From Cryomorphaceae bacterium (GTDB taxonomy: Bacteria; Bacteroidota; Bacteroidia; Flavobacteriales; Schleiferiaceae): 64,000 nt of DNA. Where the stretch lies: NCBI GenBank assembly GCA_024639785.1, contig JAHEGI010000003.1:83197-147196 (forward strand), read 5' to 3'. Both the position numbers and the translations under genes were made by a program. Under the pieces are notes generated by a model. It made no database searches. It was not told the origin of the DNA and saw only the letters and a list, made by a program, of their open reading frames with translations. Each line of letters opens with the position of its first letter. The stretch's first letter is position 1. Below, in pieces: positions 18,199 through 59,417 of this stretch.

Positions 18199-18248
18199 AG
18201 CGGGGTTTTCCACTGCAAAGTACGCACAGATTCCGTACTTTGGCCCCC

Positions 18249-19259
18249 ATGGAATTGTACCTGGACTCAGCAGACTTCAAAGAGATTGAATCTGCCTTCA
18301 AACTTGGCTTTCTAGCCGGTCTGACCACCACACCCACCTTTATGCAGCGCGAAGGGGTGCTTGATGTAGATACTACAATTGTTCAACTCGCCGACATCGT
18401 GCCGGTACTTCAAATCGAAGCCCTTGGCCATACCGCAGAGGAAATTGTTGCCGAAGCAAAGCGCCAAGAAGCCCTGGGACTGGATCGCGCACGTACCGTA
18501 TATAAAATCCCCATCTCCATGGAAGGGGCGCGTGCCTGCAAAATGCTCCGCTCTGAAGGCTTTTTAGTCAATCTCCATTTGGTCTACACACTCCAGCAAG
18601 CCTACATCGCCATGGCCGCCGGAGCTACCTATGTTTGCCCCTTGGTTGGTCGTCTGCAGGACCAAGGCAGTGATGCACTGGGCCTCGTTGCAGCCATTGT
18701 CGACATGAAATTGCAACATGGCTATGACACCAAAATCATGTTTTCTAGCGTCCGGCACTTAGAACATGTCCGCAATGCCATTGAGCTCGGCGTAGATACG
18801 ATTACCGTGCCTTGGAAGGTGATGCAACAAATGACCTCCAACCACCTGACCCAATTAGGGACCGATCAATTCTATGTCGACAACCGAAAGGTCAGCACCA
18901 CAGTGGCACAAGCTATGCGCCAGGTGGATGTTTGTATGTCGCCCTCTGCATCGGTGCAAGATGCGCTCGTCCATATGACAAAAGGCGGTTTTGGCGCCGT
19001 AGTGCTCACCGACGAAGGACGGCCTGTGGGCATGTTCACCGACGGAGACATTCGCCGCTGGCTTCAATCCGAAGCCAAGCCTTCTATGGATCAGACATTG
19101 TCAAGTATTTGCCCCCCTTCGAATCCGGCGTGGATTCAATCAACTGCGAAGCTTTCAGAAGCAGAGAAACGATTTGCTGAGGCCAAAGTGGACCAGCTCG
19201 TTGTGATCGAAGACGGACGTGTTTTGGGATTGTTGGATGTCCAAGATTTGATGGCATGA
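18249..19259 (+). CDS. FSA-type transaldolase fused to a KdsD-like CBS-domain pair
   Basis: 336 residues from ATG 18249; a TTG three codons upstream is disfavoured because fructose-6-phosphate aldolases start MELYLD. Residues 1-215 are a small transaldolase/FSA barrel with the catalytic-type Asp 6 (MELYLDSADF), the Schiff-base Lys 86 (VYKIPISMEG), NLHLVYTLQQAYIAMAAGA and CPLVGRLQDQG. Residues about 225-336 are two CBS motifs including GMFTDGDIRRWL, the wording typical of the CBS pair of arabinose-5-phosphate isomerase KdsD/GutQ. The downstream KdsC-like phosphatase overlaps it by four bases (ATGA). I do not know a characterised protein with this architecture. A sugar-phosphate aldol step gated by a nucleotide or sugar ligand is inferred. 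Confidence 0.85.
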   Translation: MELYLDSADFKEIESAFKLGFLAGLTTTPTFMQREGVLDVDTTIVQLADIVPVLQIEALGHTAEEIVAEAKRQEALGLDRARTVYKIPISMEGARACKMLRSEGFLVNLHLVYTLQQAYIAMAAGATYVCPLVGRLQDQGSDALGLVAAIVDMKLQHGYDTKIMFSSVRHLEHVRNAIELGVDTITVPWKVMQQMTSNHLTQLGTDQFYVDNRKVSTTVAQAMRQVDVCMSPSASVQDALVHMTKGGFGAVVLTDEGRPVGMFTDGDIRRWLQSEAKPSMDQTLSSICPPSNPAWIQSTAKLSEAEKRFAEAKVDQLVVIEDGRVLGLLDVQDLMA

Positions 19260-19855
19260 AGGCCCTCGTACTCGATTGGGATGGGGTTTTTCACGAGGGA
19301 CGAAAGGGGCCCGATGGTAGCAGTAGCTTTTCTGAAATCGACAGCATGGGCCTGAACCTTTTGCGCTACGGCTATTATCTCAAATTTAAAAAGCTACTAC
19401 CTGTAGCCATTGTCACGGGGGAACTCAACCCAAGTGCAGAAGCCTTTGCACGTCGAGAGCACCTTTCTCATTTCTGTTTTTTCGCTAAAGACAAACGCAG
19501 AGCCATTGCTCCCTTAAGCGAGGCGTGGAAGGTCGATGCAGCCCAATGGGGATTTGTCTTCGATGATGTCCTTGATTTTGGATTGGCTGCTCAGGTTGGA
19601 TTGCGCGCCATGGTTTACCGGGAAGCCTGTGAAGAAACCTATCATTATGCGGTAAATCAAGGATGGGTGGACTGGACCCTACAGCCTGAACATGCGGTCC
19701 GACGGTTTGCTGAACGCTATCTCACGGAATCTGGCCAATGGGAAGCCGTGGTGGAGGGACGCATGCAGCTATCCGACTCGTACAAAGCATATTGGAATGC
19801 ACGTCAGGCTCAAGACCTCACCTGCCTGGACCTACGGGAAGAGACGGTTCGATAA
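19256..19855 (+). CDS. KdsC-like HAD-superfamily phosphatase
   Basis: 199 residues. HAD motif I is LVLDWDGVFHEG (D7, D9), the DxDGV form seen in Kdo-8-phosphate phosphatase KdsC. Motif II is AIVTGE (T54), a Lys follows at FAKDKRRA, and motif IV is FVFDDVLDFGLAAQVGL (D103, D104). The SSSFSEIDSMGLNLLR segment parallels the KdsC F-x-x-x-D-G-x-G-(I/L) stretch. About 60 C-terminal residues beyond the usual KdsC end are rich in aromatic and acidic residues and unassigned. It is translationally coupled to the transaldolase-CBS gene and followed by a terminator, making a two-gene operon. The substrate is probably a sugar acid phosphate or phospho-sugar made by its partner, but this is inference. Confidence 0.8.
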   Translation: MKALVLDWDGVFHEGRKGPDGSSSFSEIDSMGLNLLRYGYYLKFKKLLPVAIVTGELNPSAEAFARREHLSHFCFFAKDKRRAIAPLSEAWKVDAAQWGFVFDDVLDFGLAAQVGLRAMVYREACEETYHYAVNQGWVDWTLQPEHAVRRFAERYLTESGQWEAVVEGRMQLSDSYKAYWNARQAQDLTCLDLREETVR

Positions 19856-19870
19856 GGAACTTAGAACCAT

Positions 19871-19902
19871 AAAAAAAGCCGGCTTACATGCCGGCTTTTT
19901 TC
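19871..19902. terminator. Bidirectional terminator between the HAD phosphatase gene and rny
   Basis: AAAAAAGCCGGC and GCCGGCTTTTTT form a perfect stem around a six-base loop (TTACAT), with T tracts on both strands. It separates convergent genes. Confidence 0.92.
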
Positions 19903-56511: not shown

Positions 56512-57816
56512 ATGGTGAACACCGCAGTGGTCTTGGCCGGCGGGAAAGGCACACGCTTGCAGTCTGCTTTTCCTGACACCGCAAAGCCCATGGTCCCCTT
56601 AGCGGGAAAACCGGTACTTCAGCATTTGGTAGAAACCTACAGCGCTCAAGGAATTGAGCGCTTTTTATTTACCATTGGCCACTTAGGGGATCAAATTCGT
56701 AGTCATTTTGGGGATGGTGCTTCATGGGGCGTCCAAATTGAATACTTCGAAGAGAAAGAGGCTTTAGGGACCGCGGGCGCGCTCTCGCAGCTGCAAGATG
56801 TTCTCCCAGAGCAATTTTGGGTCCTCTACGGGGACACCATCAGTGACATCGATTTGGCCCAAATGGAAGCCTTCCATCTGAGCAAACGGGCGGATGCGAC
56901 CCTATTTGTTCACCCAAATGATCACCCGTACGATTCAGATTTAGTCCAAAATGACCGCCATAGCCGAATCATTGCGGTACATGGCAAACCGCATGATCCC
57001 AGCGTCGACTACCCCAACTCCGTCAACGCGGCATTTTACCTTTTTAACAAGAACGTCATCGCCCAAATTCCTGCGGATAGGGCAAGTGATTTTGGCCGAG
57101 ATCTTTTCCCTGCCTGGGCACACTCCCTAAAGTTGTACGCTTATGCCAGTCCAGAGTATATCAAAGACATGGGCAAACCCGAACGCCATGCTCAAGTTGA
57201 AAAAGCTTTGATCTCGGGCAAAGTTGCGGCGCGCAACCTCAGCCAACGTCAACGCGCGATTTTTCTCGACCGGGATGGGGTGATTAACCTCGACACCGAT
57301 TTGATCAAAACGCCGGATGAAATGCAGGTCTATCCCTTTGCAGGTCCAGCTATCCGCCGCATCAACGAGTCGGATTTCTTATCAGTTGTGGTAACGAACC
57401 AAAGTGCTGTGGCCCGTGGGCTGACAGATTTGGATGGAATCGATGCCATCCATGCCCGCATGGACCGACAGTTGGGCGCAGATGGCGCCTTCGTGGATGC
57501 GCTGTACTATTGCCCACATCATCCAGATGGAGGCTTTCCTGAAGAGCGACCAGAATATAAAATTCCATGCAGCTGCCGAAAGCCTAGCCCGGGCATGCTC
57601 TTGGCGGCAGCTGACCGCTTTCAAATTGACTTGGAGCGCTCATGGATGATTGGCGACAGTCCACGAGACATCGAAGCTGGAAAGGCAGCTGGCACACGCA
57701 CTATCCGTGTGCGGACTGGCCATGGGGCCGTGCCCGGGCCCGAACCCGACTACTGGGCGGAGAATATTATAGACGCTGTGGAACTTATCTTCACCATAGA
57801 AAGCGCTAGTCTGTGA
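56512..57816 (+). CDS. Bifunctional heptose-1-phosphate nucleotidyltransferase / heptose bisphosphate phosphatase (HddC::GmhB fusion)
   Basis: 434 residues. Residues 1-235 are a sugar-1-phosphate nucleotidyltransferase: [42 protein letters not shown]. Residues 248-434 are a GmhB-type HAD-IIIA phosphatase: [23 protein letters not shown], zinc ligands in [10 protein letters not shown] and [13 protein letters not shown], and [13 protein letters not shown]. The fusion would remove the 7-phosphate from heptose-1,7-bisphosphate and activate the 1-phosphate, probably to GDP-heptose. hddA follows with a GTGA overlap, so the sugar is assigned by context. Confidence 0.9.
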
Positions 57817-58796
57817 TTATCACCCGTACCCCGTTCCGCATTTCCTTCGTAGGTGGAGGTAGCGACCTCCCTGCCTTTTATCGGATGCATGGAGGCTCTG
57901 TCCTGTCCACCACGATTGATAAGTACATGTACATTTCTTCGCATGACTATTTTGAGGCGGGGCAGATACGAACGAAATATTCAAAAACAGAAACCGTCAA
58001 CTCTGTGGCGGAATTGGAACACCCGATTCTTAGAACTATCATGCAACGACTGGGTGTTGGCGAAGGGCTAGAAGTCAGTTCCATCGCCGATGTCCCTGCG
58101 GGCACTGGAATGGGATCGTCTTCGAGTTTTACGGTAGGCACCCTACACAACCTGATGGCGCGAGAAGGTCGTCTCCAAGAAGTCAACAAAGCTTGGTTGG
58201 GCGAACAAGCTTGCCGTGTAGAGCTTGAAGACTTGGGAGAACCCATCGGCAAACAAGACCAATACGCAGCGGCATTCGGCGGCTTGAACATCATCGACTT
58301 TCATGCGAATGACCACGTCACGGTGAGCCCCATCCAGCTCTCTGCGGAGGGATTACTCGAGTTTTCAAGCCATTTAAAGCTCTATTACTTTGGAAATCAG
58401 CGCAGTGCGAGCAGCATCTTAAAGGAACAAAGTCAACGCGCAAGCGAAGTGGATAAAGTCCAGGCGCTCAAAGAAATGGTCGGATTTGTGCGTCCTTTCG
58501 CCGACCATCTGCGATCGGGTGAATGGGAGGCCATCGGACATCTCATGGATGAGAACTGGAGACTTAAACAATCCCTTGCCTCCGGAATTAGCACCCAGAC
58601 CATTCAAGAAGCCTATGCCGCGGCCCAACAAGCGGGTGCATGGGGAGGAAAATTATTGGGCGCAGGAGGCGGTGGCTTCCTGTTGTTTATCGCTCCTCCC
58701 AGCCAACATCTCGCCTTAGATCACGCCTTGTCACCATTGCGCCCATTCCCTTTCACTCTGGAAACCGCGGGCTCTCAGGTGATTTTTAACGGCTGA
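57813..58796 (+). CDS. hddA: D-glycero-alpha-D-manno-heptose 7-phosphate kinase
   Basis: 327 residues, GTG start at 57813 overlapping the upstream stop. GHMP kinase: [22 protein letters not shown] at the start, ATP motif [17 protein letters not shown], and C-terminal [18 protein letters not shown]. It phosphorylates the alpha anomer at C1, giving the substrate of the phosphatase half of the previous protein. Closest well-known group is HddA; other sugar kinases of the same subfamily are possible. Confidence 0.9.
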
Positions 58797-58805
58797 GAAA
58801 TCCAC

Positions 58806-58813
58806 TACCTTTG
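58806..58813 (+). promoter_or_regulatory. -7 element directly before gmhA
   Basis: TACCTTTG fits TAnnTTTG, with four bases (ACCT) before the gmhA ATG. TTTTT at 58783-58787 lies 18 bases upstream in the -33 position. gmhA may thus have its own leaderless transcript besides the operon. Confidence 0.5.
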
Positions 58814-58817
58814 ACCT

Positions 58818-59417
58818 ATGACCGCAGCCGAATACCGCCAACTGCTCACCGAAACCTTGGATCGACTTGACATGACGTCGGTTAATGCCATGGTGGATTG
58901 TTTCGCTAAAGCACATGCCCAAGGCGCCCATATTTATACCATGGGCAATGGTGGCTCTGGAGCCTCTGCCAGTCACGCAGCAGGCGATTTCTTGAAAGGG
59001 GCCTCCTACGGTTTAGACCAGCGGTTCAAAATGATCTGCCTCAATGACAATCTTCCCTCCATGATGGCGATAGCCAACGACATCGGCTGGGAGGACATCT
59101 TTGTCGAGCCCTTGAAGAACTTTCTTCAGCCCGGAGATGTCGTTATCGGCATCAGTGGCTCTGGGAACTCCAAGAATGTTCTAAAAGCCGTGGATTACGC
59201 TAAAGAACATGGCGCTACGGTGATTGGAATGACGGGGTTTTCAGGCGGTGCCTTACGTCAAAAGGCGGATATTTCTATCCATTCGGACGCTATGGACATG
59301 GAAGTCGCAGAAGATGTCCATATGGCCGTTTTCAATATGGTCAAAAAAGTGATGATGGCACGACTCATGGGCGACCAACCCAGCATGGGGAGCACATACG
59401 ACGACCGCGTTCGCTAA
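58818..59417 (+). CDS. gmhA: Sedoheptulose-7-phosphate isomerase (GmhA-like SIS protein)
   Basis: 199 residues. SIS fold with IYTMGNGGSGASASHAAGDFLKGA, VVIGISGSGNSKNVLKAVDYAKEHG and the C-terminal EDVHMAVFNMVKK helix with zinc-site residues of GmhA. It isomerises sedoheptulose 7-phosphate to D-glycero-D-manno-heptose 7-phosphate, the first committed step of the module whose later steps are in the two preceding genes. DiaA-type SIS proteins are an alternative, made unlikely by context. Confidence 0.92.
   Translation: MTAAEYRQLLTETLDRLDMTSVNAMVDCFAKAHAQGAHIYTMGNGGSGASASHAAGDFLKGASYGLDQRFKMICLNDNLPSMMAIANDIGWEDIFVEPLKNFLQPGDVVIGISGSGNSKNVLKAVDYAKEHGATVIGMTGFSGGALRQKADISIHSDAMDMEVAEDVHMAVFNMVKKVMMARLMGDQPSMGSTYDDRVR

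Follow-up and report, generated by a model that had tools for sequence, protein, structure and literature searches.

Kdo is among the core sugars of the outer membrane in most Gram-negative bacteria, and SIS-type isomerases, including KdsD/GutQ with the domain order SIS-CBS-CBS, are considered to provide its first committed sugar. The configuration of D-arabinose 5-phosphate (A5P) is that of C2 to C6 of fructose 6-phosphate (F6P), a product of the transaldolase/fructose-6-phosphate aldolase (FSA) fold. For E. coli FsaA and FsaB, one published account gives glycolaldehyde as the preferred donor and glyceraldehyde 3-phosphate as the acceptor in a reaction yielding A5P (PMC6298115), and another describes an engineered pathway that used FsaA as an A5P aldolase (PMC9947464). 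Our search of the open-access literature, with subscription papers and preprints outside its scope, turned up neither a description of a transaldolase-CBS protein nor a report of Kdo synthesis involving a transaldolase.

We analyzed a protein that joins a barrel of the transaldolase/FSA type to a CBS pair, encoded in a 64,000-nucleotide stretch of a Cryomorphaceae genome (contig JAHEGI010000003.1), hereafter the window. This fusion shares its barrel fold, at about 33% identity, with the small transaldolase/FSA proteins (TalC and the transaldolases of T. acidophilum, 3s0c, and T. maritima, 1vpx), from which it is set apart by its CBS pair and its kdsA neighborhood. Like KdsD/GutQ, it occurs beside kdsA and carries a related CBS pair, but it lacks the SIS domain, has an aldolase barrel in its stead and was never found together with KdsD.

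Domain architecture and active site of the fusion protein

The fusion gene (18249..19259, forward strand) encodes 336 residues beginning with MELYLDSAD, as supported by ORF reading, Pfam, NCBIfam and an AlphaFold model; its start codon is the ATG at 18249, and an alternative TTG at 18240 would add three residues. Alignment places the aldolase barrel at residues 1-215 (18249..18893), where TAL_FSA (PF00923) matches residues 3-205 over its gathering score (E 4.3e-32, 112 bits vs. 27), and Pfam and NCBIfam place the CBS pair (Pfam E 4.1e-17) at residues 216-336 (18894..19256), with FTDGDIRRW at 263-271. The AlphaFold model is confident (mean pLDDT 91.4, pTM 0.73), and its closest fold according to Foldseek is that of the T. 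maritima transaldolase 1vpx (TM 0.90 over the target). The protein missed the cut-off of the fructose-6-phosphate aldolase equivalog TIGR00875 (153.9 vs. 245.95 bits) and that of KpsF/GutQ TIGR00393 (51.6 vs. 203.7 bits, E 9.9e-14); the latter match spans model positions 151-267 only, corresponding to the CBS part and leaving the SIS isomerase domain uncovered, and the GutQ and KdsD models match the same part more weakly. An earlier note, made from the letters of the window, had described an FSA-type barrel with D6 and K86 followed by a CBS pair with FTDGDIRRW, and all of these elements are present in one protein, in agreement with Pfam and TIGR00393. Conservation of this two-domain protein extends over its whole length in 86 distinct sequences, in an alignment that left out fusions with fewer than 300 aligned residues (L045 and L058 among these), and the arrangement is thus not due to chance.

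Active-site residues were numbered by alignment to the T. acidophilum transaldolase, in which E60 corresponds to E57 of the fusion. As in the small transaldolase/FSA proteins, D6, E57, K86, N108, R135, S167 and R169 are retained, and the expected Schiff-base lysine, K86 (codon at 18504..18506), aligned with K86 of the T. acidophilum enzyme, is kept in 86/86 fusions. The same alignment reveals changes at T28, H110, C130, L132, F165 and S166. Five of these (T28, H110, C130, L132 and S166) are fixed in 86/86 fusions, as opposed to N, T, S, F and A in 27/27 ordinary transaldolases of the order (rows that count one gene twice, L013/L156, and leave out L014), and position 165 is F in the fusion and A (23) or S (4) in the ordinary enzymes. 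The window's fusion keeps every active-site residue of the fusion group. In the ordinary enzymes, the C1 hydroxyl of the dihydroxyacetone unit is bound by N28, and the site of the catalytic water is shaped by T110 together with F132, which is Y in FSA. PDB titles record mutation of K86 (K86A variant, 3s1w), T30, D211, E60 and F132 in the T. acidophilum transaldolase. Since the active site is retooled but invariant, with its lysine kept, its sequence suggests that the barrel acts on different substrates rather than having lost catalysis; being unlike the sites of both FSA and transaldolase, it also means that FSA-like chemistry cannot be assumed.

The CBS pair was compared with those of KdsD and of other Bacteroidota proteins. 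With a profile of the fusion CBS pairs, scores were 64-76 bits for eight KdsD CBS pairs and 41-63 bits for 14 other CBS proteins of Bacteroidota, setting aside L004 (10.9 bits) and the fusion L206. The corresponding tree, built with 16 of the fusions and without L206 (itself a fusion) and L004 (a poor match), placed the 16 fusion and eight KdsD pairs together on the same side of a branch supported at 93/88, a value just under the tool's strong-support mark in a tree where several other rows are long-branched. These comparisons fit a putative reuse of a KdsD-type pair.

Downstream, the stop codon of the fusion overlaps the start of the next gene by four bases (ATGA, 19256..19259), an overlap that is also seen in several relatives (gap -3). 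This gene (19256..19855, forward strand) encodes a predicted KdsC-fold HAD phosphatase of 199 residues, a designation based on weak KdsC-model matches, alignment and a fold match. The KdsC-like HAD and its four-base overlap had both been noted earlier and hold on closer inspection, including the motifs DWDGV, T54 and D103-D104; among 34 aligned sequences, D7, D9, K80, D103, D104 and D107 are invariant. KdsC-type models matched it weakly (E 2e-5 to 4e-4, far under their cut-offs), a KDN-9-phosphatase model did equally well, and a Pfam scan of the protein returned no match. Its AlphaFold model (mean pLDDT 94.1, pTM 0.90) finds its best fold matches in KdsC-family structures (4um7, 3nrj). The HAD protein shares motifs and fold with KdsC/YrbI, but differs from it in scoring only 20.3 bits against the KdsC model TIGR01670 (cut-off 106.95) and in its C-terminal part, where R and Y residues of its own are invariant. 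A terminator had been proposed to close the gene pair: the inverted repeat with its T run, GCCGGC-TTACAT-GCCGGC-TTTTTT, can be read by eye on the forward strand at 19878..19901, but it is absent from the list of our pattern scanner. No promoter was found in a scan of this locus, and the upstream neighbor of the fusion is a gene on the opposite strand, presumably accC-like, with no kdsA there.

Gene neighborhood and mutual exclusion with KdsD

The fusion was detected in 8/148 genomes of the order, four from the window's genus and four from other genera of the same family, and a profile search detected it in 5/296 genomes of the phylum that were at least 90% complete, from four families. Scanning 84,980 species genomes yielded 498 pattern matches, 486 of which are relatives, and the best 80 of these 486 were analyzed. 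Their identity to the window protein is 57-83% (99% for L045), with alignment near full length save for the truncated L045 and L058; 78 of the 80 fall under Bacteroidota taxa, one under Proteobacteria and one under "bacterium" only. The viral contigs searched contained no relative of the fusion.

A survey of this architecture and its neighbors, as the earlier note had proposed, revealed that kdsA and the HAD gene recur beside the fusion. Among the best 80 of the 486 relatives, 55 loci have a same-strand kdsA no more than 4 kb upstream of the fusion, at a distance of up to 150 bases in 39 of those 55; where at least 2 kb of upstream sequence was available (67 loci), kdsA is found upstream in 49 and is not near in 18. 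The HAD gene lies within 4 kb downstream in 64/80 loci (58/69 with at least 1.5 kb of downstream sequence), both neighbors are present in 51/80, and kdsB occurs anywhere in the locus in 11/80. These neighbor counts define a recurrent operon-like run of kdsA, the fusion, the HAD gene and sometimes kdsB.

The distribution of KdsD is complementary to that of the fusion. KdsD scored over its cut-off in 0/8 fusion genomes of the order, compared to 98/140 non-fusion genomes, and a further ten non-fusion genomes encode a SIS-only isomerase (E 1e-46 to 1e-50), bringing those with either enzyme to 108/140; G037, with a SIS fragment at a contig end, was counted as lacking an isomerase. Nine of the ten SIS-only genomes belong to the window's family, and the isomerase directly adjoins kdsA in eight of these nine, lying about 2.5 kb off in G116. 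The fusion likewise sits beside kdsA in place of a full KdsD, but the SIS-only enzyme has the SIS domain, lacks CBS domains and is unrelated in fold. Restricting the comparison to the 110 KdsA-positive genomes of the order, KdsD or the SIS-only isomerase is present in 0/6 fusion genomes and in 96/104 others (Fisher p 1.4e-6, from a cross-table compiled by hand and uncorrected for the relatedness of the genomes). The eight KdsA-positive non-fusion genomes with neither isomerase are at most 83% complete, save for one at 92% with 7% contamination. A second set of 43 fusion genomes, drawn from 39 of the 80 loci and four genomes of the phylum set, likewise had no KdsD above the cut-off, and the best SIS match there had an E of about 4e-5. 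Two of the 43 appear to be G007 and G082 again (identical coordinates), so that about 49 distinct fusion genomes were searched, and neither a KdsD above cut-off nor a SIS-only isomerase turned up in any of them; an assembly gap was rejected on this basis as the cause of the missing kdsD.

Genome context thus provides good support for the aldolase standing in for KdsD. The relatedness of the CBS pair to that of KdsD, together with the failure to find KdsD in fusion genomes, also fits the proposal of the earlier note that an aldolase domain would have replaced the SIS domain while keeping its CBS pair. Elsewhere in the family, the non-fusion locus L135 (G042:C26) has the SIS-only isomerase, kdsA and KdsC adjoining, a third arrangement for this step.

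KdsA, KdsB and phosphatase partners of the fusion

The KdsA proteins of fusion genomes are themselves altered. Their KANRSS segment reads KDNRSS, the position of A. aeolicus R106 holds M instead of R, a K of NLKKGQF is replaced by H, and R stands in place of the Q that follows the HS motif. Each of these changes is seen in 85/85 rows, compared to the usual residue in 5/5 rows from KdsD genomes; further changes occur as well, and the NRSS after the changed residue is kept. The 85 rows count some genes twice and leave out L165, and the five are those of eight KdsD-genome loci that passed a length and similarity filter. The usual residues are found in A. aeolicus KdsA (1fwn) and in that of the SIS-only genome G042. 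In KdsA with these residues, the R at the R106 position is a contact of the A5P phosphate and the K of NLKKGQF a contact of PEP. With substrate-site positions altered in this manner, the sugar used by KdsA may not be A5P. Locus L165, in the same fusion genome as L074, encodes a KdsA with canonical residues (377 bits) and is either a contamination or an exception.

KdsA scored over its equivalog cut-off in 22/29 fusion genomes, with one more partial, in a test that deliberately took in loci without a near kdsA. The window's own genome (G000; 1.82 Mb, 22 contigs, rated 98.3% complete) is among those in which it was not found: matches to KdsA were confined to one 380-residue DAHP-synthase-like protein (E 4.8e-10). 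KdsA was not found in any of the six close-lineage genomes searched (G000, G456, G457, G417, G458 and G459), including G456, whose fusion is 99% identical to that of the window. Next to a deoxynucleoside kinase gene (Pfam dNK), kdsA adjoins in G130 and is partial in G125, and the same site is intact and empty in G000; on account of this site and of the five other close genomes, the loss of kdsA in the window's close lineage seems real. Judged by its sequence, the DAHP synthase of the lineage was set aside as a stand-in for KdsA on its KPRT motif, which we take to denote the DAHP type of synthase, although it may be promiscuous. NeuB was ruled out as another stand-in, having been found in none of nine genomes searched, the six of the close lineage among them. 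In the window's genus, the kdsA of G135 (L127, G135:C64) is cut at the end of a 3.5-kb contig whose GC content (0.54, compared to 0.48 in the contig that holds the fusion in that genome) suggests possible misbinning.

The search of the complete genome for kdsD, kdsA and kdsB that the earlier note had called for therefore returned neither of the first two, the best KdsD-model match being the CBS pair of the fusion itself and no SIS-only isomerase being present, and only a KdsB-like gene (Pfam CTP_transf_3; 140.6 bits vs. a cut-off of 155.2). KdsB scores are low in the genus, with 145.8 bits in G130; the gene is fragmented in G135 and was not detected in G125. Outside the genus, KdsB of four fusion genomes reaches 199-217 bits, compared to 206-228 in non-fusion genomes. 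Among the six close-lineage genomes, the search for KdsB and WaaA covered G000, where WaaA scored over its cut-off (C7:83531). A canonical kdsD with a separate kdsC elsewhere in the genome had been named as a finding that would contradict the proposal: a KdsC over cut-off does lie between DUF2520 and Maf genes at C6:186740, whereas KdsD was not found. The window also contains, at 56512-59417, three genes whose products, by their Pfam domains, are a 434-aa nucleotidyltransferase-HAD fusion, a GHMP kinase and a SIS protein, which we take to be a GDP-D-glycero-D-manno-heptose set (HddC-GmhB, HddA and GmhA).

The proposed coupling of the HAD phosphatase to the fusion stands in that the two genes are neighbors in most of the analyzed loci, but the HAD gene also occurs on its own. 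Four SIS-only genomes examined (L129-L131 and L138) encode it without the fusion, adjoining a calcineurin-like phosphoesterase gene (Pfam on the L129 copy), presumably LpxH-like, and the fusion genome G145 has a copy away from the fusion in the same company. We rejected the HAD protein as a strict partner of the fusion on these occurrences. One stand-alone copy (L131:6001-6705) reads FVWDGV, with V at the position of the nucleophile Asp, and is possibly a decaying relic. KdsC scored over its cut-off in all eight fusion genomes of the order, with at least one copy in each of the 20 family genomes tested. Because the HAD gene occurs apart from the fusion and KdsC is present throughout these family genomes, the substrate of the HAD protein is less certain than the pathway of the fusion.

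Candidate reactions of the fusion protein

A role in a Kdo-type supply, as the earlier note had envisaged, is favored by the kdsA and HAD neighbors and by the failure to find KdsD, even though the window's lineage shows no KdsA and that of other fusion genomes is altered, and we regard participation in a Kdo-type pathway as very likely. Within such a pathway, the fusion is probably a class I aldolase of its own kind, providing KdsA with its aldose phosphate in Bacteroidota devoid of KdsD. A5P synthesis is the simplest assignment, given the reported FSA chemistry and the match between A5P and C2 to C6 of F6P, and we consider A5P its probable product. K86 would form a Schiff base with an aldehyde donor, namely glycolaldehyde, either free or released by a sugar phosphate, for instance ribose 5-phosphate, and the donor would be joined to glyceraldehyde 3-phosphate to yield A5P. 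KdsA would then add PEP, the phosphate would be removed by the HAD protein or by the separate KdsC, and the CBS pair would act as a brake sensing a nucleotide or CMP-Kdo. The weak point of this proposal is free glycolaldehyde, for which we know of no ample source and which we put forward as donor only tentatively.

This donor-supply problem would be removed if the fusion made A5P by 2-epimerizing ribose 5-phosphate, a variant of the A5P proposal in which a Schiff base at C1 would be followed by retro-aldol cleavage and aldol addition on the other face, or by deprotonation at C2, with no free glycolaldehyde. H110 could act as the acid/base in such a reaction, and the protein retains K86 as well as the residues at the positions of R135 and R169; the route is nonetheless an inference that no sequence feature singles out, and we deem it unlikely. 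Slightly less unlikely is a scenario in which the fusion and KdsA changed together, so that KdsA would use another aldose, of different stereochemistry or devoid of its terminal phosphate after HAD action, leading to a Kdo analog accepted by KdsB and WaaA. The substrate-site changes fixed in every fusion-genome KdsA row point in this direction, as does the low-scoring, fragmented or missing KdsB of the window's genus. Against it, most of the fusion genomes tested have a KdsA that still exceeds its equivalog cut-off and the NRSS segment is kept, and outside the genus the KdsB scores of fusion genomes are only slightly under those of non-fusion genomes.

A pentose phosphate pathway enzyme of the ordinary type, either an F6P/S7P transaldolase or an FSA, that had gained a CBS tail would account for the best sequence and fold matches of the fusion, all of which are transaldolases. 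We rejected this reading, now highly improbable, because a separate, ordinary transaldolase gene is present in 8/8 fusion genomes of the order (at C9:61006 in G000) and five active-site changes are fixed; the kdsA neighborhood and a score far under the FSA cut-off also speak against it. A broader, joint reading would have the window's lineage make the acid for KdsB and WaaA without KdsA, KdsD or NeuB, with the aldolase-CBS/HAD pair as the surviving part of a route to Kdo or an analog, and the wider group replace the textbook first two steps with the aldolase and a re-specified KdsA; taken as a whole, we find it rather improbable, more so than the epimerization route.

If the assignment of the fusion as the aldolase supplying KdsA is true, an unrelated protein family would occupy the KdsD step, clearly exemplifying a non-orthologous displacement in which a regulatory domain was reused. 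The fusion would also parallel, in nature, the A5P synthesis that has been engineered with FSA, and would be a candidate enzyme for the step that many Bacteroidota genomes are missing.
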